From positions 1 through 64,000 of the forward strand of contig JALONQ010000014.1 in the NCBI GenBank assembly GCA_025454835.1: DNA of 64,000 nt, read 5' to 3'. This stretch comes from Bacteroidota bacterium (GTDB lineage: Bacteria > Bacteroidota > Ignavibacteria > UBA10030). Of the stretch, positions 2 to 45,479 are shown piece by piece. The notes beneath the pieces were generated by a model. That model had not been told where the DNA came from. It saw nothing but the letters and a program-made list of their open reading frames with translations, and made no database searches. Position numbers and translations under genes: made by a program. Numbering within the stretch: position 1 is the first letter of the stretch; each line of letters starts with the position of its first letter.

Positions 2-634
2 AACAAGGACACGATGCGGTATGAGGAGCAGATCACGGGTTCGGGTGCGGGCTGGGGCTACTTGAAGACGGGGAGCACGACGAACGACACGACGAACGTC
101 GATGCGGGCTACACGGCCGAATTGCGCATCGACCTTGACAAGCTGGGGTATGCCGTCGGCACCACTTCGATCCAGCTCACCGCCGTGATCTTCGACGCGG
201 ACGGGTTCCAGCATCCGATGAACTCATGGGACCACTCGGTGGGGTCGTTCTACAAGTCGTGGTGGGGCAGCGAGTGGGGCGGCGTGTACCGTACGCTGAG
301 GGCGAACCTGACCACAGGTGTTGGTGCGGAGGACGGGGCGGCGATCCCGACGGTCTTTGCGTTGGGTCAGAATTTCCCGAATCCGTTCAATCCGGCGACG
401 ACGTTCTCCTTCGACCTGCCGGTACAGAGCCGTGTCGCGCTGAAGGTCTACGACATGCTCGGCCGTGAAGTGACGACGATCGTCGAGAGCATCATGGCCC
501 CCGGCTCGTATCGCATGCCGTTCGATGCCGGCCGCCTGTCGAGCGGCGTCTACCTGTATCGCCTTACGGCCGATCCTGCTGACGGCGCCGGTTCGCCGTT
601 CACGTCGGTCCGGAGGTTTGTGTTGTTGAAGTGA
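2..634 (+). CDS. T9SS-exported protein with CBM9-like domain, C-terminal part only
   Basis: The reading frame is open from the first base, so this is the end of a longer gene cut by the window; the ATG at position 14 is internal. The visible part (about 210 residues) starts in a beta-sandwich of the CBM9-like/DOMON type, whose motif 'VDAGYTAELRIDLDKLGY' recurs almost unchanged in the next gene. It ends in a type IX secretion C-terminal domain: a 'GQNFPNPFNP' linker, then beta-strands ending in 'RRFVLLK'. In this family the domain directs export through the Por system and attachment to, or release from, the cell surface. Substrate is unknown; carbohydrate binding is inferred from the fold and from the glycosidase genes downstream. 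It looks like a tandem paralogue of the protein at 756-2666. Confidence 0.8.
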   Translation, partial: NKDTMRYEEQITGSGAGWGYLKTGSTTNDTTNVDAGYTAELRIDLDKLGYAVGTTSIQLTAVIFDADGFQHPMNSWDHSVGSFYKSWWGSEWGGVYRTLRANLTTGVGAEDGAAIPTVFALGQNFPNPFNPATTFSFDLPVQSRVALKVYDMLGREVTTIVESIMAPGSYRMPFDAGRLSSGVYLYRLTADPADGAGSPFTSVRRFVLLK

Positions 635-755: not shown

Positions 756-2666
756 ATGCTTCGGTTGATCCGATCGGTCGTGTTGCTTGTGGCGTGCTCG
801 AGTCTGCTCATCGGACAAGGCATGAAACGCACAGATGCCCTCTGGGCCCGGACGGTGCCACCCGGTACCATCACGATCAATGGCGTGCTCAACGAAGCGG
901 CGTGGGCGGTCGCAGAATCGGTCGTGGTCCGGTACAGCCCTCTCAATTCCGAAGTGATCCCCGGCAGTGGCTGGAAGCCGGAACGTTCGGGGAGCACGTG
1001 GAACGGCATCGTGACCGACCCAACGTATGCGGTCGCAAAATTCCTCGTACAAGGGAATGAGCTCATCATGGGTCTGTTCGTCCGCGACAGTTCCGTCGGT
1101 GGAGGTCTCTTCAACGAGGCGGATGCTGTGCTGATCAATCTGCGCAACCATGCACCCGGGACCACGCCGGCCGGGCCCTTCGAGTACGGCTACGGCTGGA
1201 TCACGGAATCATGGGGAGACCCGAACGCGGGGAATCCCGGGGCGAGTCCGATCTACTTCGGCCCTGCTGCGGCCGATCGCACTGTCTGGAGCGGGGTCAC
1301 GACGGTCCATGGCCGCTCGAGTGATGACAAGAACGGCACCGCGGTCCTGACTCCGGACGCCGGTTATACCATGGAGATCCGGTTCGATCTGACGCCGCGC
1401 GGGTATGATGTGACGAAGCCGTCGGGAGATATCGTCGAATTCTCGTTTTCCATCTACGACGCTGACTGGACGTGGCCGTACAACGACGCTCGGTACTACG
1501 GCAATCGCGCCTGGTGGCAAGGACAATGGGGGAATAGCGACGGGTGGAACGTCGGCCGTATCTATGCGCGGGCCGATGTGAATCTGTCGACAGCCCCGTT
1601 GCCGCTGGTGGCGCCCGACCTGGTCATCCCGAACGGCAGCAACTACGGCGCGCCCGATGTCGATGGGGCCCTCCGTGAACCGGTGTGGCGGAATGCCCCT
1701 GGCTTCCGTATCGCTTTCGGCGATACGATGCTCCGGAGATCCTATCCGGGCGTAGCCCCATGGCGGAGCGGCCAGCATCAGCCGAAGCTGAGCGGAGCCA
1801 CGGGCACCCCGCCCGTGATGGATTCCGCGAAGGCCGATGTGAAATACTTCTTCGTCGGCGACACGCTGTTCCTGGCCGTGGACGTCCAGGACTGGTTCGT
1901 GACGTCCATGACGGACTATGATCGCTGGGACGGGATCCGATTCACGATCAATTCGCGAGACTCGCTCGAGACGATCGACCATGCGCTTCTTGTGCGACTC
2001 CTCGACGTGCGCTTCAACGTCACCGGCCAGATCATCAAAGCGGGGTATCTTCGGTTCCTTGATTCGCTCGGGCTGGCTCGTGCGGCGGTCCGCATGCGCA
2101 CCGGGACGACGATCAATGACCCGAACGATGTCGATTCGGGGTATACGGTCGAGTTGGCGATCAATCTTCGAGCGTTCGGATATCCAGCCGGTCTCGGCGA
2201 TCGGGCCCTCTTCCTGGGGGCAACGGTGTTCGACCATGACGCTTTCCTGAACCCGTCGGACGATTACGGTACGCGGACCTGGTTCACGCGAGAACATGAC
2301 CGCGGCTCGGCGCCTGCGTGGTGCAACCTCGACGGGTCGACCATGGTCACCGGAGTCGCTGGGGACGCGGCCGAGACGCCGGGCTCGTTCCATCTGCAGG
2401 GCAACTTTCCCAATCCCTTCAACCCATCTACGGTCATTGCCTTCACGCTCCCGCTGACGGCCGACGTCACATTGCAGGTCATCGACCTGCTCGGGCGTAC
2501 CGTCCACACTGCGATCCTTGGCCAGTTGTCGGCGGGTCGGCAAGAAGTACGGTTGGAAGCCTCCGGATGGAGTTCGGGGATCTACCTCTATCGGCTTTCG
2601 GCGATCGACCGGGCGACCGGTCGTCTCGCTGGTGCCGCCCACGGCAAGCTCGTGCTCATGAAATGA
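756..2666 (+). CDS. T9SS-exported protein with two CBM9-like domains
   Basis: A 636-residue secreted protein. Residues 1-21 form a signal peptide ending near 'LLIGQG'. Two CBM9-like/DOMON beta-sandwich domains follow (about 30-275 and 290-530), the first opening with the typical 'ITINGVLNEAAWAVAE' strand. A T9SS C-terminal sorting domain begins at 'LQGNFPNPFNP' (about 555-636) and ends 'HGKLVLMK'. The ATG has an AGGAGG five bases upstream (746-751), which fixes the start. The stop codon overlaps the ATG of the TonB receptor gene (ATGA), so the two are co-transcribed and probably work together at the outer membrane. No catalytic motif was seen; a binding or scaffold role for polysaccharide is inferred. 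Confidence 0.8.
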   Translation: MLRLIRSVVLLVACSSLLIGQGMKRTDALWARTVPPGTITINGVLNEAAWAVAESVVVRYSPLNSEVIPGSGWKPERSGSTWNGIVTDPTYAVAKFLVQGNELIMGLFVRDSSVGGGLFNEADAVLINLRNHAPGTTPAGPFEYGYGWITESWGDPNAGNPGASPIYFGPAAADRTVWSGVTTVHGRSSDDKNGTAVLTPDAGYTMEIRFDLTPRGYDVTKPSGDIVEFSFSIYDADWTWPYNDARYYGNRAWWQGQWGNSDGWNVGRIYARADVNLSTAPLPLVAPDLVIPNGSNYGAPDVDGALREPVWRNAPGFRIAFGDTMLRRSYPGVAPWRSGQHQPKLSGATGTPPVMDSAKADVKYFFVGDTLFLAVDVQDWFVTSMTDYDRWDGIRFTINSRDSLETIDHALLVRLLDVRFNVTGQIIKAGYLRFLDSLGLARAAVRMRTGTTINDPNDVDSGYTVELAINLRAFGYPAGLGDRALFLGATVFDHDAFLNPSDDYGTRTWFTREHDRGSAPAWCNLDGSTMVTGVAGDAAETPGSFHLQGNFPNPFNPSTVIAFTLPLTADVTLQVIDLLGRTVHTAILGQLSAGRQEVRLEASGWSSGIYLYRLSAIDRATGRLAGAAHGKLVLMK

Positions 2667-5314
2667 ACACCCTGCATCGGACCATCGCGGCCTTCGTCGT
2701 CCTGGTCTTCACGGCCTGGTCAACGCTGCTTGTCGCCGATACGAAGGGCAAGATCACCGGCGTCGTGACCGATGATCGAGGCGACCCACTGCCCGGCGTG
2801 AATATCCTGCTGGTCGGGACCGGCTTGGGAGCGTCGACGGACCTCGAAGGCTACTACGTCATTCTCAACGTGCCCCCGGGGGTGTTCCAAGTGCGTGTTG
2901 CCGCGGTCGGCTATACCCCCAAGCTCATCGAACGGGTGCGCATCTCGTCGGGCGAGACGACGCAGATCAACGCGGTCTTGTCCGAACAAGCGGTCGAGAT
3001 GAATGAAGTGGTCGTGCGGGCCGAGCGTCCGCTGGTCGACATGCGCCAGACGAGCTCGGTCACGCTGCTTGGAGAGGATCAGATCAGCGTCCTGCCCGTG
3101 CAGGAATTGAACGACATCGTCAGCTTGCAGGCTGGCGTCGTCGACGGCCACTTCCGGGGCGGCAGGAGCGGTGAGGTGCAGTACCAGGTCGACGGAGTCT
3201 CGGTCAACAACCCCTACGACAATTCCTCGACGGTCAAGCTGGACCGGTCGGTGCTGCAGGAGGTACAGGTCATCAGCGGGACGTTCGATGCCGAGTATGG
3301 CCAGGCGATGTCGGGGGTGGTCAACGCCGTCTTGAAGAGCGGGTCGGAGGAGGGGTTCGAGTGGAACGCGGAATCGTATGGCGGCGACTATCTGGGGTTT
3401 GGAACCTCTGCGCGCTACCCGCATCTCGAGAAGGTCTCCCCGTTCGCCATTCAGAACTACCAGGCCAGCGTCAGCGGACCCACACCGTTCGACCGTACCA
3501 CGTTCCTCGTCGGCGTTCGTCGATTCGTGAACGAAGGCTACCTGTTCGCCGAGCGCCGGTTCATGCCGGGCGATTCGAGCGATTTCGAGACGCAGACCTT
3601 CCGGCCTACGGGAGACGGTGATACCGTTCCTCTGCAGACGGCGGACGAATGGTCCGGCTACGTGAAGGTGATGAATCAATCGCTGGCGTCAGTGCAGATC
3701 AGCTACCAGGCCCTGGGCAACATCATTCGCTCACAGCGTTACGATCATCGTTTCCGGCTCAATCCGGAGGGGGTGCGTAAGCAACGAAGCACGTCGCTGA
3801 CGCACGGGATCGACGTGACCCACATGCTGGCGAACGAGTTCTTCTACACGCTCAGTCTTCGCGAGAATCGGTATCGGTACACGGACTACGTCTTTGAAGA
3901 CGTGTTCGACCCGCGGTATCTCGACTTCGGCGAGCCGCGTCGTGATCCCAACTACGACAACGGGGCGTTCGTTCAAGGCGTGGATCTCAGCCGGTTCAAG
4001 CAGGAAACGACCTCTTGGATCATCAAAGGAGCCATGACCCTCCAGGCGACGCGCAATCATATGGTGAAGCTGGGCGGTGAGGCGCAATGGTCAAAGATCA
4101 CGTTCGGTCCGCCGGGATCGCTCGTCCCCTCGACCGTGGCGGGCCGGCAGGTTCTCGTACCCATCGTCGACAGCCGCGATTATCCCGGCTTGCGGACCTT
4201 CTGGCCGGTCTCGGCGGCCGTCTTCGCGCAAGACCGGATTGAATTTGCTGACTTCCTCATCCGTGCCGGCGTCCGTGCCGAGTACTTCGACGCGCGGGCA
4301 CAGCTCCCCGACGACCTGCAGAACCCGGCCAACGCGATCGCCGGAGCGCCCACGGCCTCATTGCAGGCGACGACGAAGAAGGTGGTGGTGGCACCTCGGT
4401 TCGGCATGTCGTATCCGCTTTCGGATCAGGGAGCCGTCTATTTCTCCTACGGTCACTTCTACCAAATGCCGGGGCTGGGTGAGTTGTTCTCCAATTCCGA
4501 CTACACCGTGCTCCGGGACCTGCAAGCGGGCGTCGTCTCGTATGGGGTGCTCGGGAATCCCAACCTGCGTCCCGAGTTCACGACCCAGTATGAGTTCGGC
4601 GTGAAGAACCAGTTTGGCGGCGTGCTCGGCGCTGACCTGAGCGTGTACTACAAGGATATCCGGGACCTCCTCGGCGTGGAATTCGTTTCGACGTACTCCG
4701 CCGCTGAATACGCCCGCCTGACCAACGTGGACTTCGGCGATGTGGTCGGCACCACGGTGGCGCTCGACTATCATGCAGACGCCACGCTGACCGTTGGACT
4801 CGACTATACCTACCAGATGGCCATGGGGAACTCGAGCGATGCCCGGGAGACAGCCACGCGGGCTGAAGCGGGTGAGGACCCTCGCCCGCGCCGGGTGCCG
4901 TTGACCTGGGACCAGCGGCATACGCTCAATGCCAGCATCATCATCGCCGATCCGGGAGACTACAGCCTCACGTCGATCGTGCGCTTCGGCACGGGACAAC
5001 CGTACACGCCCACCGTGCTGAGCCGTCTGGGGGCGAACCTTGAGACGAACTCCGCCCGCAAGGATGCCTACGTGACGGTCGACGTCAGGGCCGAAAAGAA
5101 CTTCACCTTCTCGGGCGTCCGACTCACGGTGTTCGCCAGGGCCTTCAACGTGTTCGGCGAGCACACTGTGAATGGATTCGTCTTCGGCGACACCGGCAGC
5201 CCCGACTATTCACTGAACCGGACCGGCAATGCCGCGTTGCTGACAGATCCCAGCCGGTTCTATCAGCCGCGGCGCGTGGAACTCGGGATCTCCTTCTCCG
5301 GACGAGGATCGTAG
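2663..5314 (+). CDS. TonB-dependent outer-membrane receptor
   Basis: An 883-residue outer-membrane receptor. After a signal peptide (about 1-25, ending near 'STLLVADTKG') comes a carboxypeptidase-regulatory-like beta-sandwich (about 28-110, 'GVVTDDRGDPLPGVN'), then a plug domain (about 125-230, with 'VQYQVDGVSVNNPYDN'), then a large beta-barrel. This order is that of SusC/RagA-like and related transporters, which take up ligands using TonB-ExbBD energy. The longer frame opening at 2318 only runs over the end of the preceding gene; the ATG at 2663, overlapping that gene's stop, is the natural start. No SusD-like lipoprotein gene accompanies it; the genes that follow encode a secreted FN3 protein and a PorV-family barrel. 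Substrate is inferred (a glucan from the downstream operon), not shown. Confidence 0.88.
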   Translation: MNTLHRTIAAFVVLVFTAWSTLLVADTKGKITGVVTDDRGDPLPGVNILLVGTGLGASTDLEGYYVILNVPPGVFQVRVAAVGYTPKLIERVRISSGETTQINAVLSEQAVEMNEVVVRAERPLVDMRQTSSVTLLGEDQISVLPVQELNDIVSLQAGVVDGHFRGGRSGEVQYQVDGVSVNNPYDNSSTVKLDRSVLQEVQVISGTFDAEYGQAMSGVVNAVLKSGSEEGFEWNAESYGGDYLGFGTSARYPHLEKVSPFAIQNYQASVSGPTPFDRTTFLVGVRRFVNEGYLFAERRFMPGDSSDFETQTFRPTGDGDTVPLQTADEWSGYVKVMNQSLASVQISYQALGNIIRSQRYDHRFRLNPEGVRKQRSTSLTHGIDVTHMLANEFFYTLSLRENRYRYTDYVFEDVFDPRYLDFGEPRRDPNYDNGAFVQGVDLSRFKQETTSWIIKGAMTLQATRNHMVKLGGEAQWSKITFGPPGSLVPSTVAGRQVLVPIVDSRDYPGLRTFWPVSAAVFAQDRIEFADFLIRAGVRAEYFDARAQLPDDLQNPANAIAGAPTASLQATTKKVVVAPRFGMSYPLSDQGAVYFSYGHFYQMPGLGELFSNSDYTVLRDLQAGVVSYGVLGNPNLRPEFTTQYEFGVKNQFGGVLGADLSVYYKDIRDLLGVEFVSTYSAAEYARLTNVDFGDVVGTTVALDYHADATLTVGLDYTYQMAMGNSSDARETATRAEAGEDPRPRRVPLTWDQRHTLNASIIIADPGDYSLTSIVRFGTGQPYTPTVLSRLGANLETNSARKDAYVTVDVRAEKNFTFSGVRLTVFARAFNVFGEHTVNGFVFGDTGSPDYSLNRTGNAALLTDPSRFYQPRRVELGISFSGRGS

Positions 5315-5321
5315 GAACCGC

Positions 5322-8300
5322 ATGAACCATCGGCGACTGTTCACCATCCTTCTGCTGGCGATGCTCCCGCGTCTCAGCCTCCTCGGGCAAGTGGCGACGC
5401 CCGTTCCGCCGGAGTATCGTGGGAAGATCGATGCGGAGCGATCGGGTATGCACGATGCGGCGAGCATCCGCACCGTCTTCTACAACTTTGGGATGGTGGG
5501 GGACTATCCGCCCGATCCGGGCAATGTCGACCTGAGCGTGTTCCATTCGGCGGAAGCGCCCAAAGGGACGGGCATGAACTACACCGACGGCATCAGCCCT
5601 TTCGTGCTGGCCAATGTGCAGCAACGGGGTGGAGCACCGGCGTACATCATGCAAACAGGATTCCGGGAACGTCAACAGTGGAGCCCGTACACCCAGCGGG
5701 TCATGCGGTTCGAGCCGCGGCCGGGCTACTTCCAGCCTGATCCGTCCATCAACGTCGGCCGCTCGCTGGCCATCAACACTGATCGCCGGACCTGGCCGGA
5801 TGAGTGGTATGACCGGATCAGCGATCCGGACGATCCGGGTTGGAGCGGTTCGTGGAACGGCTACTTCGGCAAACAGCCCGCCGCCGACCAGGAGAGTTTC
5901 TCGGTGATGGATGACAACATGTACGATGCGTGGGACTTCTTTCCCGACAGCCGGGATACAACTCGCCGCGGACTGGGCTTGCGGGTCGAGGTACGGGGTT
6001 TCCAGTGGTCGAATCCGCAGGCCGCCAACGTCATCTTCTGGCACTACGATGTGGTGAATGAATCGACGACCGAATATGCCGACAACATCATCTTCGGCCT
6101 CTATCTCGATTCGGGCGTCGGCGGGTCATCCCTCTCCTGCGACGGCATCTATGAGTCGGACGATGACAACGCTTTCTTCGACAAGTCGCTCGGTCTCAAT
6201 CTCGTGTATACGTGGGACAAGAATGGCCACGGAGTCGCCTTCAACACGAACTGCGCGACCACCGGGTATCTCGGCTATGCCTACCTGGAGACGCCGGGCA
6301 ATGCCGTGAACGCCAAGGACGACGACAACGACGGTCTGCTGAACGAGCGGCGGGATGGTGGCCCGGGTCAACTGATCATCGGACGCGAAGCGATCGTCCA
6401 GCAGCTCGCCTCAACAGGCGACACGACGAAGTTCGTGGCGGCCTTCGGGCCCATCGAACTGCGGCCTGCCTATGTGGCCGGTCGCTGGTGGACCGGAGAT
6501 GAGGACCTCGACTGGGTGGCGGAACTGCACGATGCGGGCACCGACGGGATCTTCAACACGGACGCACCGGATGCTGGCGAGGGCGATGGCATGCCGACAT
6601 CCGGCGAGGCAAATTTCGACCAGACCGACCTTCAGGAATCGGACCAGATCGGACTGACGGGGTTCAAGATGAATCGCATCGTCGCCGGCCAGGGGACTCC
6701 TGATCCGCAAGTGGACGATATCGTCTTCTTCGATGATGGTCGCTCGTGGCCCAAGCGGTTGTATCAAATGTGGACCGATCCGATCGAGGCCAACCGGTTC
6801 GATGCGCCGCTGGTGGCCAACTACAACATCGGCTTCTTTTTTGCATCGGGCCCGTTCACGCTCGGCGTGAATAAACGTGAACGCTTCAGCCTGGCCCTCG
6901 CGTACGGGGCGGACCTGGAAGAGCTGAAACGCACGACCAAAGTGGTCCAGCAGATCTATAACGCCAACTATCGTTTTGCCGTACCTCCGCCGCTGCCGAC
7001 CCTCGTCGCCGAAGCCGGTGATGGCTATGTGCGGTTGACCTGGGATGATGTGGCGGAGCGGGGGATCGACCCTGTGACGGGTCTGAACGACTTTGAAGGC
7101 TATCGGATCTACCGTTCAACTGACCCATCGTTGTTGGACCCGAAGGTGATCACCAATGCCCGGGGCACCGGTCCGCTCCAGGGCAGCAACGGACGTCCGC
7201 TCGCGCAGTTCGACCTCGTGAACGGCCGTTTTGGCTTCTCCGAGATGGCTGTGGAGGGGGTCCAGTACTTCCTGGGTGATGACAAGGGTCTGCGGCATTC
7301 GTGGACCGACACGACCGTCGTGAATGGACAACTCTACTACTACGCCGTGACGGCATACGATCACGGAGCGGATACCCTCAGTTTCTACTTCTATCCTTCG
7401 GAAAACCCGATCACGATCACGCAGTCAGTCAGGGCGGGCATCATTCTTCCGCCGAATGCGGCACAGGTCCGGCCGAATCCAAAGGTCCTGGGATACGTCG
7501 GGGCTTCAACGGACGCCGTCGAGCGAAGGTCGGGGCTGGGGACGGGGTCCGTCGCGGTCAAGGTGCTGACGGACGCGGTGGTGCCCGACGGCCACACGAT
7601 GCGACTCTCTTTCCATACGGACGACGTCGACAGCATCCGCGCGAATCACTACCGCCTCGTCGACAGCACGACAGGCAAGACGCTGATCAGTCGGGGGTCC
7701 GATCTGGCAGGAACCGGCACGGGCCAGGTGGGCTCCGGTCTGCAGCCCGTGGTGTCCGTTCCTGAATCGATCTGGGTCGATCAGAGTGCCAGCGGCTTCA
7801 GGCTCGGCAGTGGATCCAACGCCGCCCTTTCATTCGAGTACCAGCGCCTCGCCGCTCCCCTGAACCGCCGCCGGCCTGGATTCCCGGCCGACCTGACGAT
7901 CACCTTCGGCGCGACGCCGCTGGACACGACGATCCTTCTGCCGCCGCGTTTCCCGCGTCCGGTCAAGTACCGGGTCGTTGCCCACGATACCGGCGGTGAT
8001 CTGCGGCTGAAGACCGTGCTGTTTGATACGAATAACGACAGCACGCTCAGCGCGCCGGGCGAGTATATCGACGTGATCACCTATCTGCCAGAAGAGCCGA
8101 CGAGGCCGAAACAGACCTGGCGTATGAGGCTGGACACCGCTGGCCAATACCTCCGGGGCCCGATGGTGCCGCCGCAACCCGGTGATATCTATCGCGCAGT
8201 GGTCCGCCGTCCGTTCGGCGAAGGAGATGTATTCGCGTTCGTGACGCATGAACGGCGGATCGACCCGCAACGGGCCACGGCTGAGTTCGCGAACGAACCT

Positions 8301-8600
8301 TACGTCGTCCCCAATCCTTACGTGGGATTTGCGAGTTTCGAGCCGGAACGATTCGCGGTCTCGGGTCGCGGGGAGCGACGGATCGAATTCCGCGGTCTGC
8401 CGGCTGATTGCACGATACGTGTGTACACGGTCAAGGGGGAGCTGGTCAAGACGCTCACGCATGATGGGTCGGTGGACGGGATCGTTCCATGGAATCTCCG
8501 GAGTGCCGACAACCTCGACGTCGCCCCCGGGCTTTATGTGTTCCACGTCGATGCCGGAGCACTCGGCGTGAAGATCGGCAAGTTCGCGCTCATCAAATGA
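5322..8600 (+). CDS. large secreted protein with FN3 domain and T9SS-like C-terminus
   Basis: A 1092-residue protein with signal peptide (about 1-23, ending 'LSLLGQ'). The first ~550 residues match no family I know. They include an acidic 'KDDDNDGLLNE' stretch like a thrombospondin type-3 calcium loop. A fibronectin type III domain spans about 555-695. The end (about 990-1092), 'PYVVPNPYVGF' followed by beta-strands closing with 'KIGKFALIK', resembles FlgD-Ig/T9SS sorting domains. It starts seven bases after the receptor's stop. Comparable receptor/large-secreted-protein/PorV-family triplets are known to me from Ignavibacteria-type genomes, but their function is undefined. A surface ligand-binding partner of the receptor is a reasonable guess only. 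Confidence 0.75.
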   Translation: MNHRRLFTILLLAMLPRLSLLGQVATPVPPEYRGKIDAERSGMHDAASIRTVFYNFGMVGDYPPDPGNVDLSVFHSAEAPKGTGMNYTDGISPFVLANVQQRGGAPAYIMQTGFRERQQWSPYTQRVMRFEPRPGYFQPDPSINVGRSLAINTDRRTWPDEWYDRISDPDDPGWSGSWNGYFGKQPAADQESFSVMDDNMYDAWDFFPDSRDTTRRGLGLRVEVRGFQWSNPQAANVIFWHYDVVNESTTEYADNIIFGLYLDSGVGGSSLSCDGIYESDDDNAFFDKSLGLNLVYTWDKNGHGVAFNTNCATTGYLGYAYLETPGNAVNAKDDDNDGLLNERRDGGPGQLIIGREAIVQQLASTGDTTKFVAAFGPIELRPAYVAGRWWTGDEDLDWVAELHDAGTDGIFNTDAPDAGEGDGMPTSGEANFDQTDLQESDQIGLTGFKMNRIVAGQGTPDPQVDDIVFFDDGRSWPKRLYQMWTDPIEANRFDAPLVANYNIGFFFASGPFTLGVNKRERFSLALAYGADLEELKRTTKVVQQIYNANYRFAVPPPLPTLVAEAGDGYVRLTWDDVAERGIDPVTGLNDFEGYRIYRSTDPSLLDPKVITNARGTGPLQGSNGRPLAQFDLVNGRFGFSEMAVEGVQYFLGDDKGLRHSWTDTTVVNGQLYYYAVTAYDHGADTLSFYFYPSENPITITQSVRAGIILPPNAAQVRPNPKVLGYVGASTDAVERRSGLGTGSVAVKVLTDAVVPDGHTMRLSFHTDDVDSIRANHYRLVDSTTGKTLISRGSDLAGTGTGQVGSGLQPVVSVPESIWVDQSASGFRLGSGSNAALSFEYQRLAAPLNRRRPGFPADLTITFGATPLDTTILLPPRFPRPVKYRVVAHDTGGDLRLKTVLFDTNNDSTLSAPGEYIDVITYLPEEPTRPKQTWRMRLDTAGQYLRGPMVPPQPGDIYRAVVRRPFGEGDVFAFVTHERRIDPQRATAEFANEPYVVPNPYVGFASFEPERFAVSGRGERRIEFRGLPADCTIRVYTVKGELVKTLTHDGSVDGIVPWNLRSADNLDVAPGLYVFHVDAGALGVKIGKFALIK

Positions 8601-8641
8601 GCGGCCGACAGTGTTGGACCTTGGATATCGATGAAGGCCGG

Positions 8642-9694
8642 ATGATCATGGTCAGAACGAACACATCGTGGCGGCATCAAGCGACCCATCGCCGGTGGTT
8701 TTCCGCTGCGGTGGCGGTCGCGGTCACCTTGGCAGGGGCCACGGCCCAGCAGAAGACGGGTTCGACGGTCGGGCAATTTCTTCTGATCGAGCCGAGCGCC
8801 CGCGCGAGTGCCATGGGAAATGCCGGTGCGGCCTTGCACGACGAGGCCCTTGCCGGATACTACAATCCTGCGGCCTGGGGACACCTCTCGGGAACGGATG
8901 CCCAGGTGATGCACAGCGCCTGGCTGGCGGGTATTGCCTTCGACTATGGCGCCGTGGGTGTCCCCGTCGGTGGCGGCAGTACGGTCGCGATCACCCTGGC
9001 TTCGCTGAATTCCGGTGAGATCGCTGTGCGCACCGTCCAACAGCCCCTCGGAACCGGAGAGTACTATCGGGCCAGCAGCTTGGCGCTGGGCGTTGGCTAC
9101 GCCATTCGCGTGACCGATCGCTTTTCCGCCGGCCTGCATCTGCATTATGTGCAGGAAACGATCTGGCACAGTTCTCTGACGGCCTTCTCTATTGATGTCG
9201 GCACGTTGTATCAACTGACGCCCGACGGCCTCACCTTGGGTGCGAGTCTGTCGAACTTCGGGACGAAAGGCCGGTACAGTGGAAGCGACCTCCGCATCCG
9301 GTTCGACAACGATGCGTCGGTCTATGGAGACAACAGCAACCTGCCGGCGGAGGTCTACACCGAAGAGTTCTCCCTTCCGATCCTCTTCCGCGTGGGACTG
9401 GCCTATCCCGCGCTCCATTCGGAGCACCACCGCCTCATCGTGGCTGTCGATGCCGTTCATCCCTCCGACAACACGGAGAGCGTCAGCTTCGGAGCGGAAT
9501 GGACCTTCGACGGGTTCGTGTCACTCCGGGGCGGGTACCAGCAACTTTTCAAGCAAGACTCCGAAGTCGGCCTGACGCTCGGCGGCGGCATTGCGTACGA
9601 GGTGTTCGGATGGATGGTACGCATTGACTATGCGTGGGCGGACCACGGACGCCTCCAGGACACACAACGCTTCACGGTCGGATTCCTCTTCTGA
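8642..9694 (+). CDS. PorV/PorQ-family (UPF0164) outer-membrane protein
   Basis: About 350 residues with a signal peptide ending at 'AGATAQQ'. The start of the mature protein, 'GQFLLIEPSARASAMGNAG' and then 'YYNPAAWGHL', is the hallmark of the PorV/PorQ family of FadL-like beta-barrels. PorV and PorQ are T9SS components that shuttle cargo or act at the attachment step, but many family members of unknown role sit beside TonB receptors. The frame is open from 8489; I choose the ATG at 8642 (alternatives 8597, overlapping the previous stop, and 8648), because it gives a compact signal peptide. It is the last gene of the 756-9694 run. Whether it serves the general secretion system or only this locus cannot be told. 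Confidence 0.8.
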   Translation: MIMVRTNTSWRHQATHRRWFSAAVAVAVTLAGATAQQKTGSTVGQFLLIEPSARASAMGNAGAALHDEALAGYYNPAAWGHLSGTDAQVMHSAWLAGIAFDYGAVGVPVGGGSTVAITLASLNSGEIAVRTVQQPLGTGEYYRASSLALGVGYAIRVTDRFSAGLHLHYVQETIWHSSLTAFSIDVGTLYQLTPDGLTLGASLSNFGTKGRYSGSDLRIRFDNDASVYGDNSNLPAEVYTEEFSLPILFRVGLAYPALHSEHHRLIVAVDAVHPSDNTESVSFGAEWTFDGFVSLRGGYQQLFKQDSEVGLTLGGGIAYEVFGWMVRIDYAWADHGRLQDTQRFTVGFLF

Positions 9695-9757
9695 TGCCGT
9701 TTCTCACAACACATATTGCGTTCAACCCGGAAGCAGCATGAGAAACGGGCACTCGTG

Positions 9758-9844
9758 CCTGCCCGCCAGAGCGCACGCGCAGGCGGAAAGCCCGCAACTT
9801 TGTTCGCGGAGCGAACGTCAAGGTTTTCCGGCACGCAGGCGGGC
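9758..9844. repeat. dispersed palindromic intergenic repeat, copy A
   Basis: Lies in the 220-bp gap between the PorV-family gene and the GH94 gene. It is bounded by CCTGCCCGCC and GGCACGCAGGCGGG, which are partly inverted, and contains the perfect palindrome GTTCGCGGAGCGAAC at 9802-9816. Palindrome and right arm recur at 45391-45432, and a related CCTGCCCG...CAGGCGGG unit occurs at 24839-24910. It may work as an mRNA hairpin or be a REP/MITE-like element. Confidence 0.6.
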
Positions 9845-9914
9845 TCGCTTCCAACACAAGATCTCTTTCGGGAAGCGGCACCAGACCGGCCACACCTCAT
9901 TCCTGTAGACCAGC

Positions 9915-12326
9915 ATGAAACGTCTGTTTGAGACCGACGCGGGCTACTTCACGCCCGACGGCAAAGAATACGTCGTCACCACGCCCCGCACGCCACGGCC
10001 GTGGTCCAATGTGGTCAGTAATGGCGACACGGGTTTCATCGTGTCGCAGACCGGGGGAGGCTACAGTTGGCGGACGAATGCCCAGGTGAACCGGATCACG
10101 CGCTGGGACCAGGACATTGTCAAGGACGAATGGGGCAAATTCCTGTACGTGCAGGACCGTGACAGCGGCGACGTTTGGTCCGCGGCGTGGAAGCCTGTCT
10201 GCGTTGAGCCGGACTTCTACGAGGTTCGGTACGGCGCCGGAGTAGTGACGTTTCGCTCCCGCAACTTCGGCATTGACTCGGCCTGGACCATGTTCGTGCC
10301 GGTCGACGATCCGGTGGAAGTGTGGAGACTGACGCTGCACAATCGCACACGCAAACGCCGACGATTGCGGTTGATGACGTACTTCGAGTGGGGCCTGGGT
10401 GCCGCGCCCGATTGGCACAGGGAATTCCACAAGTGTTTCGTCGAGACGTCGTATGACCGCTCAAGCCATGCCATCGTCGCGACCAAGCGACTCTGGGAGG
10501 TACCGTCAGACCGGGGGCATTGGAACTCCTCCTGGCCCTACGTGGCCTTCCACTCATGCAGCGTCAAGCCAGCCTCGTACGATGCCAGCAAGGAGAATGT
10601 CCTTGGTCCCTACGGAAGCTTTCGTCAGCCCCGCGGGTTGTCGTTGAAGCGCCTGCCGGGCTCGACGGGGAATCTGTGGGATCCGGTGGCCAGCTTGATG
10701 GTCGATGTCGTCCTCAAGCCGGGTGAGGATCGGGTGGTGACCTTCACACTCGGGGTGGTGGAGAGCCGCGATGAGATCAAGAAGCTTACGACCACCTACC
10801 ATGCGCTTCCGAAGGTGGACGCGGCCCTCGATCGGGTGAGGAAACGATGGGATGACCTTCTCGGAGCGGCGCCGGTGGAGACGCCCGACGCGTCCATGGA
10901 CGTCTTGTTGAACCGCTGGCTGCCCTACCAAGCCATCGCCGGCCGTCTCTGGGGCCGGACGGGGTACTATCAGGCGGGAGGAGCGTTCGGCTACCGCGAC
11001 CAGCTGCAGGATAGCCAGATCTTCCTGCCGATCGACCCCTCGATGACGCGGAAGCAGATCCTCCTGCACGCCCGGCATCAGTTCAAAGATGGGACCGTCT
11101 ATCATTGGTGGCACCCCCTCTCCGAAGTAGGGCTTCCGACGACGATGACGGACGATCTGCTGTGGCTTCCGTACCTCGTGGATGCGTATCTTCAGGAGAC
11201 CGGAGACGATTCGATCCTTTCGGCGAAAGAGCCGTTCATCGACGATCCCGCGGGCGGCACGATCTATGACCACGCGGTGCTGGCGATCGAACGAGTGCTT
11301 GCCCGGTTCAGTCCGCGCGGCCTGCCGCTGATCGGCACGGGGGACTGGAATGACGGTATCAATGCCGCCGGGATCAAATGGAAAGGAGAGTCGGTCTGGC
11401 TCGGCCAATTCCTGTACGGGATCCTGCGGTCCTTTGCGGCCGTCGTTGCACAACGCGGCGACTCGGCGCGGCATGCAGCCTTTGCCCAACGCGCTGAGGC
11501 GCTTCGTTCGGCGCTCAACCAGCATGGATGGGACGGCGACTGGTACATCTATGGGACGACCGATGAAGGGCAGAAGATCGGTTCGCGCGAGAGCACAGCT
11601 GGGCGCATTCACTTGAACCCTCAGACGTGGTCCGTGCTCGCCGACGTCGCGTCTCCGGAACGCGCCCGAGCGGTGATGGACAAAGCCCTGGAAATGCTGG
11701 AGTACAAAGCGGGCCCACTCCTGCTGTATCCAGCGTACAGCGTGCCCGACGAGAAGATCGGATACCTGACCCGCTATGCTCCGGGCACGCGCGAGAACGG
11801 AGCGGTCTACACGCATGCCGCCACATGGGCCGTGATCGCCGCGGCCAAGCTCGGAAGGCCGGAGGACGCGTATCGGCTCTTCCGCAAACTCAGCCCGATC
11901 GTGCGCGGGCGACGACCGAAGGCCTATGGCGCCGAGCCCTACGTCACGGCCGGCAACATCGACGGCCCGGACTCTCCGTTCTACGGCAGAGGAGGGTGGA
12001 CTTGGTATTCGGGTTCGGCGGCATGGCTCTGGAAGGCCGGCTATGAATGGATCCTCGGCGTTCGTGCATCACGTCAAGGTCTCGTGGTCGAGCCGTGTAT
12101 TCCGCACCAATGGAAGCGATTTGCGGTGACCCGCGTCTTCCGCGGAGCGACCTATCGTATCACGGTCCTGAACCCGCGCGGGGCCAGCCGCGGCATCCAA
12201 AGCGTGCAGATCGATGGTGTTCAAATGGCGTCATTCGTACCAAGATCCGCCGTCGTCCTTCCGGTTCAATCGGCTGGTTCGACGCATTCAATCACCATCA
12301 CGATGGGCGGTCAGAAGCGTGCGTAG
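9915..12326 (+). CDS. GH94 glycoside phosphorylase, probably on beta-1,2-gluco-oligosaccharides
   Basis: An 803-residue cytoplasmic enzyme (no signal peptide) of glycoside hydrolase family 94. It shows the N-terminal beta-sandwich, the (alpha/alpha)6 barrel and the C-terminal jelly roll of the family. The loop 'GTGDWNDGINAAG' (about 474-486) holds the conserved catalytic-acid aspartate. GH94 enzymes split beta-glucosides with phosphate, giving alpha-glucose 1-phosphate. The sequence 'NRWLPYQAIAGRLWGR' and 'YQAGGAFGYRDQLQD' resembles the GH94 part of cyclic beta-1,2-glucan synthases (NdvB/ChvB) and 1,2-beta-oligoglucan phosphorylases more than cellobiose phosphorylases, by memory of those families. 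It is first in a co-directional run to 24809 with two PF10091 enzymes and a sugar importer, which supports a sophoro-oligosaccharide substrate. Cellobiose or another disaccharide remains possible. Confidence 0.85.
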   Translation: MKRLFETDAGYFTPDGKEYVVTTPRTPRPWSNVVSNGDTGFIVSQTGGGYSWRTNAQVNRITRWDQDIVKDEWGKFLYVQDRDSGDVWSAAWKPVCVEPDFYEVRYGAGVVTFRSRNFGIDSAWTMFVPVDDPVEVWRLTLHNRTRKRRRLRLMTYFEWGLGAAPDWHREFHKCFVETSYDRSSHAIVATKRLWEVPSDRGHWNSSWPYVAFHSCSVKPASYDASKENVLGPYGSFRQPRGLSLKRLPGSTGNLWDPVASLMVDVVLKPGEDRVVTFTLGVVESRDEIKKLTTTYHALPKVDAALDRVRKRWDDLLGAAPVETPDASMDVLLNRWLPYQAIAGRLWGRTGYYQAGGAFGYRDQLQDSQIFLPIDPSMTRKQILLHARHQFKDGTVYHWWHPLSEVGLPTTMTDDLLWLPYLVDAYLQETGDDSILSAKEPFIDDPAGGTIYDHAVLAIERVLARFSPRGLPLIGTGDWNDGINAAGIKWKGESVWLGQFLYGILRSFAAVVAQRGDSARHAAFAQRAEALRSALNQHGWDGDWYIYGTTDEGQKIGSRESTAGRIHLNPQTWSVLADVASPERARAVMDKALEMLEYKAGPLLLYPAYSVPDEKIGYLTRYAPGTRENGAVYTHAATWAVIAAAKLGRPEDAYRLFRKLSPIVRGRRPKAYGAEPYVTAGNIDGPDSPFYGRGGWTWYSGSAAWLWKAGYEWILGVRASRQGLVVEPCIPHQWKRFAVTRVFRGATYRITVLNPRGASRGIQSVQIDGVQMASFVPRSAVVLPVQSAGSTHSITITMGGQKRA

Positions 12327-12356: not shown

Positions 12357-14498
12357 ATGAAGTCGCTGTCCCTGACGGCTTGGATATTCCTCCTCCTCTT
12401 TCCCTCGTTGCTGAGCGCCCAGTCGGTTTCTGAGATCTTCGATGACGATCCGGGAAGTTCCGTCTATCGTGACGCCTCGTGGGGGACCGCCGGGGCCGGA
12501 GACTTCTTGCAGCTCCAAGGCGACAAAATGCCGCTCGTGGTCACCCAGCACTATAGCGGGCTGGAAAGCGGGTTGATACGATATAATCATGTTCTCAATG
12601 GTAGCTGGGAACTCTACATTGCTGGAAACGCCTGGCAGACGAAGGACCTATCGTCCTTTGACAGTCTCGTGTTCTATGTGAATGCCCCGAATTCCATCCC
12701 GGCGGCGGAACTACCGCAGATCGGGTTTGAATCTGCCAACGGGAATGCGAAAAGTCCCCTCATCAGCTTGTCGGCCTACTTGACGCTTGATGCCGACTCG
12801 ACCACCTGGCAACGCGTCGCCATCGCCTTCTCGGCTTTTCAGCCCTTCGGCAATTTCGACCTGGCTCAGTTCAAGACGGTCCGGTTCAAGAACGGAGGCG
12901 TCACATCCGCGATCCGGACGCTGTGGGTCGATGCGATCGTGGCCGTGGGCGGTACAGCTTCCGACACCCTGCGTCCGCTGACCGATCAGGAATTGCTCGA
13001 CACATTGCAGTACACCGCCTTTCGCTATTTCTGGGATGAGGCGAATCCTGCGAATGGATTGGTGCGAGACCGGAGTGCGTTGACCTCGCCTGCCAGCATC
13101 GCGGCCACGGGTTTCGGTCTCACGGCCCTGACGATCGCCGTCGACCATGGCTGGGTCACGCGGGCGGCAGCGGGGGACCGGGTACTGACCACGCTTCGGA
13201 CCTTCTGGGAGAAGCCTCAGGGAGCGGGTGCGAGCGGGACCATCGGCTACAAGGGGTGGTTCTATCACTTCCTTGACATGACGACGGCGACGAGGCTCTA
13301 CACGCCATCCTGGAAAAGCGAGCTGTCGTCGATCGACACAGGCTTGCTGCTCGCGGGGATCGTCGACGCACAGATCTACTTCGACGGGGCGGATTCGGTC
13401 GAAACCCTCATCCGTGCGCTCGCCGATTCGGTCTACCGCCGGATCGACTGGATCTGGATGACCAACGGAGCGTCGTCGCTGACCCACGGGTGGAGTCCGG
13501 AAGGCGGCATGCTGTCCTACCGTTGGATCGGCTACAACGAAGCCATGGTTTTGTATGTCCTTGGATTGGGCGCACCCCGGGATCCCTTGCCGGCCAGCGC
13601 ATGGACGGCGTGGACATCGGGTTACCAATGGGCAACACGCGAAGGATACGAGCACGTACCGTTCCCCTCATTGTTCATCCATCAATACTCGCATGCCTGG
13701 ATCGATTTTCGCGGCATGGCCGATCCGTACATGCGGTCGAAGGGGATCACGTATTTCGAGAACAGTCGTCGAGCGACGCTGGCCAATCGTGCCTATTGCA
13801 TCCGGAATCCCGGTGGATACACCGACTACGGTCCGAATGTGTGGGGTCTGACGGCCTGTGACGGACCGACAGGGTATTCGGCGCGTGGGGGTCCGTCGGG
13901 TTTCGATGACGGCACCATCGCCCCGACGGCGGCCATCAGTTCCATGCCGTTCACGCCCGTTGAGTCGATCGCAGCGGCGCGCGAGTTCTACAGCCGGTAT
14001 GGCTCGGCACTGTTCGGCAAGTACGGGTTTCGCGATGCGTTCAACCCGACCGTCAACTGGTTCGGCGGGGAGTACGTCGGCATCGACCAGGGACCGATCA
14101 TCATGATGATCGAGAACCACCGGCATGCAACGGTATGGGACCGGTATAATGCACATCCGGCTGTCGCTCGCGGACTCGTCGCCGCGGGATTCCAGCCGGT
14201 GACGAGCGTTGCGTCAGAGCCCTTGGGAATTCCCGGACGGGCGTGGCTGGCGCAGAACTTCCCGAATCCGTTCAATCCTGAGACGTCCTTCGAATTCCGC
14301 ACCGAGGCCGCCGGAACGGTGACGCTCAAGGTCTTTGATGTCCTTGGCCGCGTGGTCGCAACCGTGGTCGACGGGTCTCTTCCGGCGGGGACCTTCGTCT
14401 ACCGTTGGAACAGCATGCATCTGTCGGGAGGCACCTACTTCTACCAGCTGACGACCGGTGGACAGGTGCTGACGAAAAAGCTGACCATCGTTCACTGA
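12357..14498 (+). CDS. secreted glycoamylase-fold (PF10091, GH144-like) glucanase with CBM and T9SS domain
   Basis: A 713-residue exported protein. Signal peptide about 1-21 ('LLSAQS'). Residues ~25-195 are a galactose-binding-like beta-sandwich, probably a carbohydrate-binding module. Residues ~205-615 are the (alpha/alpha)6 glycoamylase domain PF10091, with conserved stretches 'GYKGWFYHFLDM', 'SSIDTGLLLAGI', 'HQYSHAWIDFRG', 'ENSRRATLANR' and 'GIDQGPIIMMIEN'. The T9SS domain begins at 'QNFPNPFNP' (about 635-713). PF10091 includes the GH144 endo-beta-1,2-glucanases and also occurs inside cyclic beta-1,2-glucan synthases. The ATG is preceded by GGAGG. An outer-surface endo-glucanase feeding oligosaccharides to the importer is inferred. 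The next gene is a paralogue lacking the CBM and sorting domain. Confidence 0.83.
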   Translation: MKSLSLTAWIFLLLFPSLLSAQSVSEIFDDDPGSSVYRDASWGTAGAGDFLQLQGDKMPLVVTQHYSGLESGLIRYNHVLNGSWELYIAGNAWQTKDLSSFDSLVFYVNAPNSIPAAELPQIGFESANGNAKSPLISLSAYLTLDADSTTWQRVAIAFSAFQPFGNFDLAQFKTVRFKNGGVTSAIRTLWVDAIVAVGGTASDTLRPLTDQELLDTLQYTAFRYFWDEANPANGLVRDRSALTSPASIAATGFGLTALTIAVDHGWVTRAAAGDRVLTTLRTFWEKPQGAGASGTIGYKGWFYHFLDMTTATRLYTPSWKSELSSIDTGLLLAGIVDAQIYFDGADSVETLIRALADSVYRRIDWIWMTNGASSLTHGWSPEGGMLSYRWIGYNEAMVLYVLGLGAPRDPLPASAWTAWTSGYQWATREGYEHVPFPSLFIHQYSHAWIDFRGMADPYMRSKGITYFENSRRATLANRAYCIRNPGGYTDYGPNVWGLTACDGPTGYSARGGPSGFDDGTIAPTAAISSMPFTPVESIAAAREFYSRYGSALFGKYGFRDAFNPTVNWFGGEYVGIDQGPIIMMIENHRHATVWDRYNAHPAVARGLVAAGFQPVTSVASEPLGIPGRAWLAQNFPNPFNPETSFEFRTEAAGTVTLKVFDVLGRVVATVVDGSLPAGTFVYRWNSMHLSGGTYFYQLTTGGQVLTKKLTIVH

Positions 14499-15931: not shown

Positions 15932-18586
15932 ATGTCCCTCGCCGACCTGAACCCCGTACCAGTACTCCGTGACAGCTCATCCCCGCGAGCGCGTATCCCG
16001 CTGAACGGTACGTGGAGGATCTCCGCCGGCGCGTTGGAACAACCGCCTCCCTTCTATCATCACACCATTGAAGTACCTTCTGTTGTCGATTGTGCCGAGC
16101 CCCCGCTCACAGGTCGAGAATCCTCCTACTATTGGTACGCCCGGGAATTGGACCTGCTGAGGTTGCCGGAGGATGTGCAACTCTGGTTGAGACTGGAACA
16201 GGTACAATTCGGGACGTCCGTCAGGATCGACGACCGATCGGTCGGCGGTTCGAGCGCCTGCACGACGTCCCAGGAGTACCGGCTCGACACCTTTGTGCGG
16301 GACGGAAGGCATCAGCTCCAGGTCCGCGTTGGTCATCGGTCCACGCTGCCGCCGGAGAGCGCTGCCGGACGGGATCAGGAGAAGGAGGTCTTCACGCCCG
16401 GGATCTGGGGTGATGTCAGCCTTCTGGTGACGGGACCGGCGCACATCCGCGATGTGCTCATGCTGCCCGACCTGGCGCATGCGAACGCGCAGGCCTGCGT
16501 ATGGGTGGCGGACACCGGCCTGGACCCGTCAGCTTGCCATGTGCGGGTGAATGTCTCGAACGCCCAAGGAGATCCGGCGTCAATCTCAACGAACGCCGCC
16601 TTCGTAAGGCGGGAAGATGGTGCTCTTCGCTATGAGGCTCGTTTGCCTATCGATTCGCCTCGCGCGTGGTCGCCGGAAGATCCGTATCTGTACGTCTCCA
16701 ACGTGTCCGTGTCCGTGGCCGGCACGCTCGCCGACGCGGTCGATGTCCGCTTTGGCATGCGCGACATCCGTATCGTCGGTTCGTCCTTTCACCTGAACGG
16801 ACATCCGCTCCATCTTCGCGGCGGCAATATCGCCTTTCACCGATTCCTGTCGGATCCGGAACGGCGCCGGTTGCCCTGGACGATGGAATGGGTGCGCAAA
16901 GCCTTCATCGAGATCCCGCGCGACCACCACTTCAATTTCTTCCGATTCCATCTCGGCCGCGCCTACCATCAGTGGTATGACCTCGCCGACGAACACGGAC
17001 TCCTCTTGCAGGATGAGTGGGCGTTCTGGAATGCGACAGGATCCAACGCCGAGATCGAGCAGGAATTCCGTCAATGGATCAAGGACAACGGCAATCACCC
17101 CAGCATCATCATCTGGGACCCCCTGAACGAATCGACCGACGACAGCCTGATCCATGACGTGGTGCCATCGCTGAGGGGTCTGGACCCGACACGCCCGTGG
17201 GAGGCCGTCGATTTCGTCGAACAACATCCCTACATCTATTCGTTGGGGATGACGCTGAACCACCGACCATTCGGCTTCACAAAGGCGCTCACGGAACTCG
17301 AGCGGTCGGGCGTGCCGGTCGTCGTGAACGAATTCCTCTGGTGGTGGTTCGACGCTTCGTGGAGACCCACGGTCCTGATGCAAGACGTCGTCGAGCGATG
17401 GCTCGGTCGGACCTGCAGCACGGCCGACATCGTCCGGCACCAGGCGTACCTGGCCGAAGAGCTCGTCGGTCTCTTCCGACGGATGCGGTGCGCGGCGATC
17501 CAGCCGTTTGTCTACCTGAGCAACAACGAAGGTCCGACGGCACACTGGTTCGAAGGGCCGATCGGGGCTTTGAAGCCCAAGCCGGTGCTGGCGGCGCTGA
17601 AGAACGCGTTCGCACCGTTCGGCCTCAGCATCGACTATGCCGACCGGCATGGAGAGACAGGGGCTTCGGTCCTGTTGAAGGTGCACGTGCTCAACGATAC
17701 GACGCACGTGCGGCACGGCGACGTCGTCCCCATGGTATCGTCGGCCGATGGCGGCGAAGAGCAGCTTGATCCGATCCCGGTGCGTGTGCCGCCGGGGGGG
17801 CATGCGCTGGTCGACGTGCGCGTGGAGCTTCCGATGACACCGGGACCGGCGACGGTCCGATGCGATCTCTTCGACGGAACGCGCCAGGTGGCCGCGTCGA
17901 GCCGTGAGATCCATGTGTTCGACCGCTCGCAACTGCGCCGATGGACGCAAGAGGCGCCCGTCGTGCTCGATCCCGGTGGTGAGGTCCCCGACCTGTTGCG
18001 CCGACACGGATGGGCGTACCATCCCTGGGCGCAGTCGCCATGGCCTGACGGGGCCTTGATGTACGTCGGCAGTTTCGGCCTCGCTCACCAGGCCTATCGT
18101 GAGCAGATCGACAGTGTCGGCAGCAGGGTGAACGAGGGCGCGACGTTGATCGTCCAAGAGCCGGAGTTCCGCGTGGTCGGTCCGGCCGAATTCGAGGTCG
18201 TGCCGGGTCTCGTGCTGCGCGCGGAACGACGTCATGATGTGGACAAGGGCGGATATGATTCGTATGTCTTCCCCGAGGATCCGGCCCATCCGCTCTGGCG
18301 GGGATTGAGGCCGGAGCACTTCCGTTGGTTCAACGGTGGGGTCGGGGGAGAGATCGTGTCTGAATACACGGTCGAACCGTCGCTTCCGTCGCGACCGTTG
18401 GCCTCGTGCGGCCTGGGGTTGCATACCGCCGCCGTGTGCGAGATCTCCTTCGGTCGTGGGCGTGTGATCGTGTCACGCATCCAGGTCCGTGGCCGTTTGA
18501 ACCGGAATGCGGCCACTTCCGACCCATTCGCCCGGCGATACGATCCGGTCGCCGCGCAGTATCTTCTCAATCTTCTCTCTCTTTGA
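15932..18586 (+). CDS. glycoside hydrolase family 2 enzyme
   Basis: An 884-residue protein with GH2 architecture: N-terminal jelly-roll sugar-binding domain (about 20-170), immunoglobulin-like domain (about 175-285), then a TIM barrel (about 290-570). The acid/base is seen in 'WDPLNES' (Glu at about 400) and the likely nucleophile in 'VVVNEFLWWW' (Glu at about 467). A C-terminal beta-rich region follows. No signal peptide is visible, which suggests a cytoplasmic enzyme acting on imported oligosaccharides, although GH2 proteins often have one. GH2 covers beta-galactosidases, beta-glucuronidases, beta-mannosidases and some beta-glucosidases, so the substrate cannot be read from sequence. In this operon it may finish the beta-glucan pathway that the GH94 phosphorylase begins. 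Confidence 0.82.
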   Translation: MSLADLNPVPVLRDSSSPRARIPLNGTWRISAGALEQPPPFYHHTIEVPSVVDCAEPPLTGRESSYYWYARELDLLRLPEDVQLWLRLEQVQFGTSVRIDDRSVGGSSACTTSQEYRLDTFVRDGRHQLQVRVGHRSTLPPESAAGRDQEKEVFTPGIWGDVSLLVTGPAHIRDVLMLPDLAHANAQACVWVADTGLDPSACHVRVNVSNAQGDPASISTNAAFVRREDGALRYEARLPIDSPRAWSPEDPYLYVSNVSVSVAGTLADAVDVRFGMRDIRIVGSSFHLNGHPLHLRGGNIAFHRFLSDPERRRLPWTMEWVRKAFIEIPRDHHFNFFRFHLGRAYHQWYDLADEHGLLLQDEWAFWNATGSNAEIEQEFRQWIKDNGNHPSIIIWDPLNESTDDSLIHDVVPSLRGLDPTRPWEAVDFVEQHPYIYSLGMTLNHRPFGFTKALTELERSGVPVVVNEFLWWWFDASWRPTVLMQDVVERWLGRTCSTADIVRHQAYLAEELVGLFRRMRCAAIQPFVYLSNNEGPTAHWFEGPIGALKPKPVLAALKNAFAPFGLSIDYADRHGETGASVLLKVHVLNDTTHVRHGDVVPMVSSADGGEEQLDPIPVRVPPGGHALVDVRVELPMTPGPATVRCDLFDGTRQVAASSREIHVFDRSQLRRWTQEAPVVLDPGGEVPDLLRRHGWAYHPWAQSPWPDGALMYVGSFGLAHQAYREQIDSVGSRVNEGATLIVQEPEFRVVGPAEFEVVPGLVLRAERRHDVDKGGYDSYVFPEDPAHPLWRGLRPEHFRWFNGGVGGEIVSEYTVEPSLPSRPLASCGLGLHTAAVCEISFGRGRVIVSRIQVRGRLNRNAATSDPFARRYDPVAAQYLLNLLSL

Positions 18587-21586: not shown

Positions 21587-21647
21587 CGGTGTGGCGTTCC
21601 CTGCCCGGTTCGACAGCCAGTCAAAGAGAACGCTCCAACGAGGTGAT

Positions 21648-45432: not shown

Positions 45433-45479
45433 CGCAACGACAGCAACGGTCGCTAAAGGCTGATTCTAGTGTAGATGTC

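Follow-up and report, generated by a model that had tools for sequence, protein, structure and literature searches.

A conserved gene unit of a TonB-dependent receptor, a large secreted protein and a PorV-family barrel as a probable SusD-less nutrient-uptake system in Ignavibacteria and related lineages

Polysaccharide uptake in Bacteroidota pairs SusC with SusD: a TonB receptor is co-encoded with a surface protein and substrate-matched hydrolases, and a genome carries several copies with differing enzyme sets. In the type IX secretion system (T9SS), the barrels PorQ and PorV anchor the surface proteins PorZ and PorU, and the C-terminal domain (CTD) of PorZ stays uncleaved (PMC8545088, PMC5562754). 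T9SS cargo with a type B CTD in F. johnsoniae has a dedicated shuttle of the PorP/SprF type, encoded directly downstream (PMC12618676). In the β-barrel assembly machinery (BAM) of Bacteroidota, which contains BamG and the lipoprotein BamH, BamG, a barrel of the FadL family, keeps a large surface protein in place beside another barrel (PMC12611786). The locus described here lies in a 64,000-nucleotide stretch of DNA (the window; positions 1 to 64,000 of contig JALONQ010000014.1, assembly GCA_025454835.1) from a Bacteroidota bacterium of the class Ignavibacteria. Three of its genes, encoding a TonB-dependent receptor (TBDT), a large secreted protein (LARGE) and a PorV-family barrel (PORV), probably act together at the outer membrane as a nutrient-uptake unit that fulfils the role of SusC and SusD without a SusD.

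The core of the locus comprises four genes, all on the + strand. The first, G1 (756..2666, 636 aa), encodes a secreted CBM9-like protein, presumably an accessory surface protein, with a T9SS type A tail (PF18962/TIGR04183; E 2.6e-7 for TIGR04183); its match to CBM9_1 is weak and below the cut-off (E 4.5e-4). TBDT (2663..5314, 883 aa) is a receptor of the non-SusC type with an N-terminal CarbopepD_reg_2 domain and with Pfam matches to the barrel (E 3e-35) and the plug (E 1.3e-5). LARGE (5322..8600, 1092 aa), the proposed ligand-capturing partner, matches nothing in Pfam at E<=1, and PORV (8642..9694, 350 aa) is a 14-stranded barrel proposed as the dedicated anchor of LARGE. G1 and TBDT overlap by 4 bp (ATGA), while gaps of 7 bp and 41 bp separate TBDT from LARGE and LARGE from PORV. 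A sequence-only reading had assigned these four closely joined genes to a T9SS CBM9-like protein, a TonB receptor, a large FN3/T9SS-like protein and a PorV/PorQ-family barrel, and all four assignments hold, that of LARGE through a weak PDB profile match and fold matches for FN3 and through PorZ and PorU matches for the tail.

The TBDT-LARGE-PORV unit is real and widespread, and its recurrence is far beyond chance. Relatives of LARGE were found with a LARGE profile in 61/61 genomes of the class. In the class, 92 LARGE genes count as strong, and 83 of them have a TBDT before and a PORV after them, usually at a spacing of 0-60 bp; these counts, from crude gene calls on stretches around matches, are lower bounds, because the gene caller, which puts length first, missed some PORV genes in favour of open reading frames on the opposite strand. 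A scan of named genomes gave 80 loci, and the complete set is present in 59 of the 65 with enough flank. The taxa, named as deposited and with many entries being metagenome-assembled genomes, are Ignavibacteria and relatives, Eisenbacteria, KSB1, Calditrichia, Krumholzibacteriia, Neomarinimicrobiota, WOR-3/Stahlbacteria, Gemmatimonadetes and Rhodothermales. The gene order, whose conservation had been proposed as a check, is thus strongly kept. LARGE and the PorV family are also multicopy in the genome of the window itself (its own genome), which has about eight TBDT-LARGE-PORV sets in the stretches around matches. One locus (L159, G019:C27) has the order TBDT-PORV-LARGE. A PpiC-type prolyl isomerase with a SurA-like N-terminus adjoins about 20 units (for example L147:3550-5220), perhaps for barrel assembly.

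Like SusC/SusD systems, the unit occurs in several copies per genome with differing enzyme sets, and its TonB receptor is co-encoded with a surface protein and, at the window locus, with enzymes for one glycan, an arrangement kept across phyla. Unlike them, it has a PorV-family barrel as a third component and no SusD-family protein. Profile searches with PF14322, PF07980, PF12771 and PF12741 found no SusD in its own genome. In a sample of the phylum, PF14322 occurs in 5/36 genomes of the class, one copy each, and in 71/82 genomes outside it, the latter count omitting one family that lacks SusD and has hardly any PorV-family proteins. The numbers of PorV-family and SusD proteins are inversely related (Spearman -0.57 for 118 genomes and -0.54 for 32 family means), with per-genome counts that are lower bounds and a correlation that ignores kinship. 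TBDT reaches 73.3 bits on the SusC/RagA model TIGR04056, mainly in its N-terminal part, far below the cut-off of 368. A lipobox-like pattern is found in 7/174 LARGE proteins, the same as the background among PORV proteins (6/156), so LARGE is no predicted lipoprotein; it has a T9SS-like CTD and its model is β-rich. SusD, whose fold is helical, is not among the fold matches listed, though such a gap in a list proves nothing by itself. Because the SusD searches, the SusC model score and the lipobox counts all gave negative results, the unit is best classed as a variant of TonB-dependent nutrient uptake outside the SusCD family. The sequence-only reading was right that SusD is lacking beside the receptor, since the own genome has none and the class rarely does. 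Its replacement stands at the level of this SusD-free genome, but not as a general rule, as some lineages keep both systems.

The AlphaFold2 model of LARGE (pLDDT 85), together with fold and CTD matches, suggests a supersandwich domain (residues ~32-550), an FN3 region (~551-700), a further β domain (701-990) and a PorZ/PorU-like CTD (~991-1092). The N-domain aligns with the β-supersandwich of dextran dextrinase (Z 20.3 over 265 residues, 3.2 Å) and also matches glucodextranase (Z 18.7), GH94 (~17), GH116 (~16) and galactose mutarotase (13.7); the secondary structure of the model shows no sign of a catalytic barrel. A DxDxDG-type loop with a calcium-binding look lies at residues ~333-346, and a matching pattern is present in 147/174 LARGE proteins. 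The best Foldseek E-value for LARGE is that to PorZ (8e-7, with a low TM-score), and its only sequence-profile matches in the PDB below E 0.01 are PorZ (0.002) and PorU (0.006), both at the CTD. In the own genome, the CTDs of all nine LARGE proteins are recognised by the PorZ model, with E-values from 4.8e-7 to 0.09. LARGE is not PorZ itself, as it scores 15 bits, in the CTD only, on the PorZ equivalog NF052228 (paralogues 11-29; cut-off 260). Lys is the last residue in 158/174 LARGE proteins, and a PNP[YF] motif is found near the end of 168/174.

A secreted surface protein with a PorZ/PorU-like CTD beside a PorV-family barrel recalls the PorZ-PorQ and PorU-PorV attachment complexes, and PorZ binds a sugar ligand (A-LPS), as is proposed here for LARGE. 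LARGE differs from PorZ and PorU in having predicted supersandwich and FN3 domains instead of propellers or a sortase, and in being multicopy, with links to a TonB receptor and to catabolic genes. The own genome has T9SS genes for SprA, PorU and a PorV candidate; from these and the CTD we infer a T9SS-dependent surface location for LARGE. The PorV candidate directly follows a canonical PorU sortase (G000:C13:37285-42535), apart from the uptake units. With such a machinery, PORV might be only a secretion shuttle that takes LARGE from the SprA translocon, after which the CTD would be cleaved and LARGE fixed to lipopolysaccharide by PorU like type A cargo; LARGE would still capture ligand, and PORV would be no stable part of the unit. 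F. johnsoniae is an established case of PorP/SprF-type shuttles directly 3' of their cargo (PMC12618676), and PorU and a PorV candidate are at hand in the own genome. A dedicated barrel gene directly 3' of that for the protein it serves is common to both cases; in the unit, the barrel belongs to the PorV family, the CTD is PorZ/PorU-like and a TonB receptor is included. Against a mere shuttle, the LARGE CTDs resemble those of uncleaved PorZ and PorU, not type A: the type A sorting domain TIGR04183 has no match at E<=1 in the window LARGE, and one of its eight paralogues passes the cut-off. A shuttle role alone is therefore rather unlikely.

The sequence of LARGE tracks the enzymes encoded nearby. 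Identity to the window LARGE is bimodal across loci. Where it is 48% or higher, GH94 and/or GH144 genes are present in 32/37 loci from several named phyla, the remaining five ending within 1.5 kb downstream; below 48%, they are present in 4/115. GH144 was assigned here with tail-free queries, the shared T9SS tail having been removed. Within the resulting β-1,2-glucan group, the median identity is highest for LARGE (57.5%), followed by TBDT (52.1), PORV (50.5), GH94 (49.2), GH144 (48.1) and G1 (38.9), while across other units PORV is the best kept (39.3 vs 34.4 for LARGE and 33.1 for TBDT). Positions fixed in the β-1,2-glucan group and not in the rest make up 6.0% of LARGE, 4.6% of TBDT and 1.4% of PORV, and many of those in LARGE lie within residues 40-156. 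Ligand recognition by LARGE and TBDT, with PORV in a generic role, would be expected to leave such a pattern of conservation. The group-specific positions of LARGE are not enriched in aromatic residues (14% vs 12%), so the classical aromatic signature of a sugar platform was not found there.

Another possibility is that LARGE and PORV form a surface-display or adhesion pair that is co-expressed with TBDT and not bound to it, TBDT alone taking up oligosaccharides. FN3 domains are common in adhesins, and the contact between LARGE and TBDT is putative. Such a pair is nevertheless quite unlikely in view of the order and short gaps that the three genes keep across phyla, the richness of LARGE in substrate-group positions, the correlation of LARGE and TBDT distances (0.91), and the co-variation of the LARGE N-domain with TBDT. 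Over 147 units the distance matrices correlate at 0.91 for LARGE-TBDT, 0.84 for LARGE-PORV and 0.90 for TBDT-PORV, an agreement to be expected for co-inherited genes.

The model of PORV (pLDDT 92) has 14 main strands. PORV clearly belongs to the PorV/PorQ family NF033709 (190 bits, E 7e-56; cut-off 90) and stays far below the cut-offs of both the PorV equivalog NF033710 (72 bits; cut-off 250) and the PorQ equivalog NF033711 (81 bits; cut-off 220), whereas the PorV candidate beside PorU in the own genome scores 248.9 bits on NF033710. Its best structural match is PorV in complex with the RemA CTD (8gl6, Z 33.8), followed by FadL (30.7) and BamG (26.6). The match to FadL would suit a barrel that itself takes the place of SusD or serves as another conduit, with ligand moving through it in the way that hydrophobic molecules move through FadL. 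However, the best match is PorV, not FadL, and PORV has the fewest group-specific positions and is the best kept between units with different neighbours; a conduit is thus highly improbable, and PORV was rejected as the ligand partner on conservation. Of the two candidates named earlier as the substitute for SusD, LARGE is the more probable ligand partner, and PORV probably the anchor, judging from the N-domain fold and CTD matches of LARGE, the group-specific positions, the co-variation and the PorV fold.

The units often have carbohydrate enzymes and sugar transporters as neighbours, in agreement with the proposed co-occurrence with carbohydrate-active enzyme operons. In the own genome, units adjoin GH3 (C33), CBM20 proteins with a LacI-type regulator (C1:30-38k), heparinase/alginate-lyase-like enzymes (C37) and GHL10 (C23); others adjoin S51 and M20 peptidases with a DcuC carrier (C41), Amidase_3 (C28), or PIG-L with gamma-glutamyltranspeptidase (C1:415k). 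The unit is biased to glycans and not restricted to them, because copies in one genome adjoin differing catabolic genes, some of them for peptides or the cell wall. The suggestion of a different type of glycan uptake unit is supported by synteny, glycan neighbours and the absence of SusD, but is too narrow for the copies with peptide or cell-wall genes. In four loci (L124, L125, L127 and L128), orthologous units adjoin cell-shape genes (putative mreC, mreD, PBP2 and RodA-like, by sequence reading) with no evident glycan enzymes. A non-nutrient role, for instance in metal uptake or in assembly of the outer membrane, could be read from the copies that adjoin PpiC-type chaperones, cell-shape genes, PIG-L or gamma-glutamyltranspeptidase, and from the related barrel BamG, which serves as the anchor of a surface canopy. 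BamG matches PORV structurally, and in BAM, as in the unit proposed here, such a barrel would hold a large surface protein beside another barrel, but the role of BAM is the assembly of outer-membrane proteins, not uptake. Since the annotated neighbours are dominated by carbohydrate enzymes, sugar regulators and sugar transporters, and the β-1,2-glucan genes track the LARGE sequence, a non-nutrient role is very unlikely.

The conserved unit, its substrate-tracking neighbours, the predicted folds and the domain-wise co-variation are observed, and they are consistent with a joint role in uptake. Several points weigh against it. A physical complex, an uncleaved CTD, ligand binding and import are deduced from sequences, models and analogy; the supersandwich fold is no proof of sugar binding, and the CTD matches in the PDB are weak (E 0.002-0.006). 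Once TBDT is removed, the link to PORV is 0.01 for the N-domain of LARGE, 0.19 for the CTD and 0.24 for FN3, the last two in all 300 bootstraps; this lends modest support to a possible contact between the CTD and PORV, but the partial correlations are small and come without a null for slow or fast segments. Shared ancestry of whole loci, or their transfer, explains part of the association of LARGE identity with GH94/GH144 (Fisher p = 3e-23); the p value therefore overstates independence and does not say how probable a function is. The class does contain some SusD, PF07980 being found in 16/61 of its genomes in one to three copies, and some units adjoin peptide, murein or housekeeping genes.

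Because LARGE tracks substrate and has a supersandwich N-domain and a PorZ/PorU-like CTD, and PORV matches PorV best, we think that LARGE is the partner that captures the ligand and that PORV anchors it in the membrane, by analogy with PorZ on PorQ. LARGE would be exported by the T9SS, and its CTD would stay uncleaved and bound to its own PORV barrel, as that of PorZ on PorQ. The supersandwich N-domain would bind an oligosaccharide and hand it to TBDT, which would import it with TonB energy. At the window locus the ligand would be β-1,2-glucan fragments set free by a secreted GH144; these would be cut in the periplasm, imported by an ABC transporter and phosphorolysed by GH94. This proposal draws on the precedents of PorZ/PorQ and of dedicated barrels, and on SprA, PorU and the PorV candidate of the own genome.

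It is an evenly balanced question whether such units constitute a widespread second class of uptake machine, in which a TonB receptor barrel and a 14-strand PorV-family barrel combine with a T9SS-exported ligand binder with an uncleaved CTD, the T9SS acts as a builder of uptake machinery, and the unit is the main glycan importer of many lineages of the FCB (Fibrobacteres-Chlorobi-Bacteroidetes) group that lack or rarely use SusD. No description of the unit or of SusD-less loci in these lineages was found in open-licence papers, which is weak evidence, and the searchable literature yielded no explanation of how polysaccharides are imported with little or no SusD in Ignavibacteria, Calditrichia, Eisenbacteria, Neomarinimicrobiota and relatives. 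If the proposal is true, each unit flags a substrate-specific uptake locus missed by SusC/SusD-based searches, and T9SS surface attachment and TonB-dependent import, which have been seen as separate, become joined. The conserved β-1,2-glucan locus makes it directly testable.

The glucan operon that the sequence-only reading placed beside the unit begins 220 bp after PORV, on the + strand throughout. It encodes a GH94 enzyme (9915..12326; PDB 8rf9, E 1.9e-162), a PF10091/GH144-type β-1,2-glucanase homologue with a T9SS type A tail (12357..14498; domain profiles), a GH144 endo-β-1,2-glucanase homologue (PF10091; 14519..15898) that matches XcSGL (8xul) with 570 bits over 426 residues, and a GH2 glycosidase (15932..18586; profile match). 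Endo-β-1,2-glucanase activity of XcSGL has been reported (PMC12102758). An ABC sugar importer follows, with a sugar-binding protein (SBP_bac_1; 18757..19872, its start uncertain as the frame is open from 18406) and two permease genes (19900..21586, the first start being provisional), both with BPD_transp_1, in frames 18996-20768, whose 5' part overlaps the binding-protein gene, and 20666-21586. The second-best PDB match of the sugar-binding protein is Listeria Lin1841 (5ysb, 227 bits), which we take to be the Sopn-binding protein of the Listeria SOGP cluster. Because these genes comprise GH94, two GH144-type enzymes, GH2 and a sugar ABC importer, the substrate of the window locus is likely to be β-1,2-glucan. 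The Ignavibacterium album cluster IALB_1177-1187 likewise has GH94, GH144 and a Sopn-binding protein; the available part of PMC8861115, which mentions the Sopn-binding protein from the Listeria SOGP cluster, suggests a TonB-dependent transporter for uptake and names this transporter only, LARGE and PORV not being discussed there.

A homologue of G1 sits 5' of the receptor in most β-1,2-glucan loci. In the window, G1 is preceded by the C-terminal part of a second CBM9-like, T9SS-tailed protein (14..634, + strand; 38% identity to G1 over 180 aa), whose gene is truncated and whose upstream context is cut, since the contig begins at base 1 of the window. The two form a tandem CBM9-like T9SS pair that is also seen in other β-1,2-glucan loci (L169, L177). 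Between PORV and GH94, the intergenic sequence at 9740-9870 is palindrome-like, and a 62-bp part of it recurs at 45372-45433 with 84% identity and has no copy in the other own-genome stretches compared. Right after the ABC importer, 21591-24809 encodes a 1072-aa protein with an F5/8 type C domain that possibly belongs to the locus.

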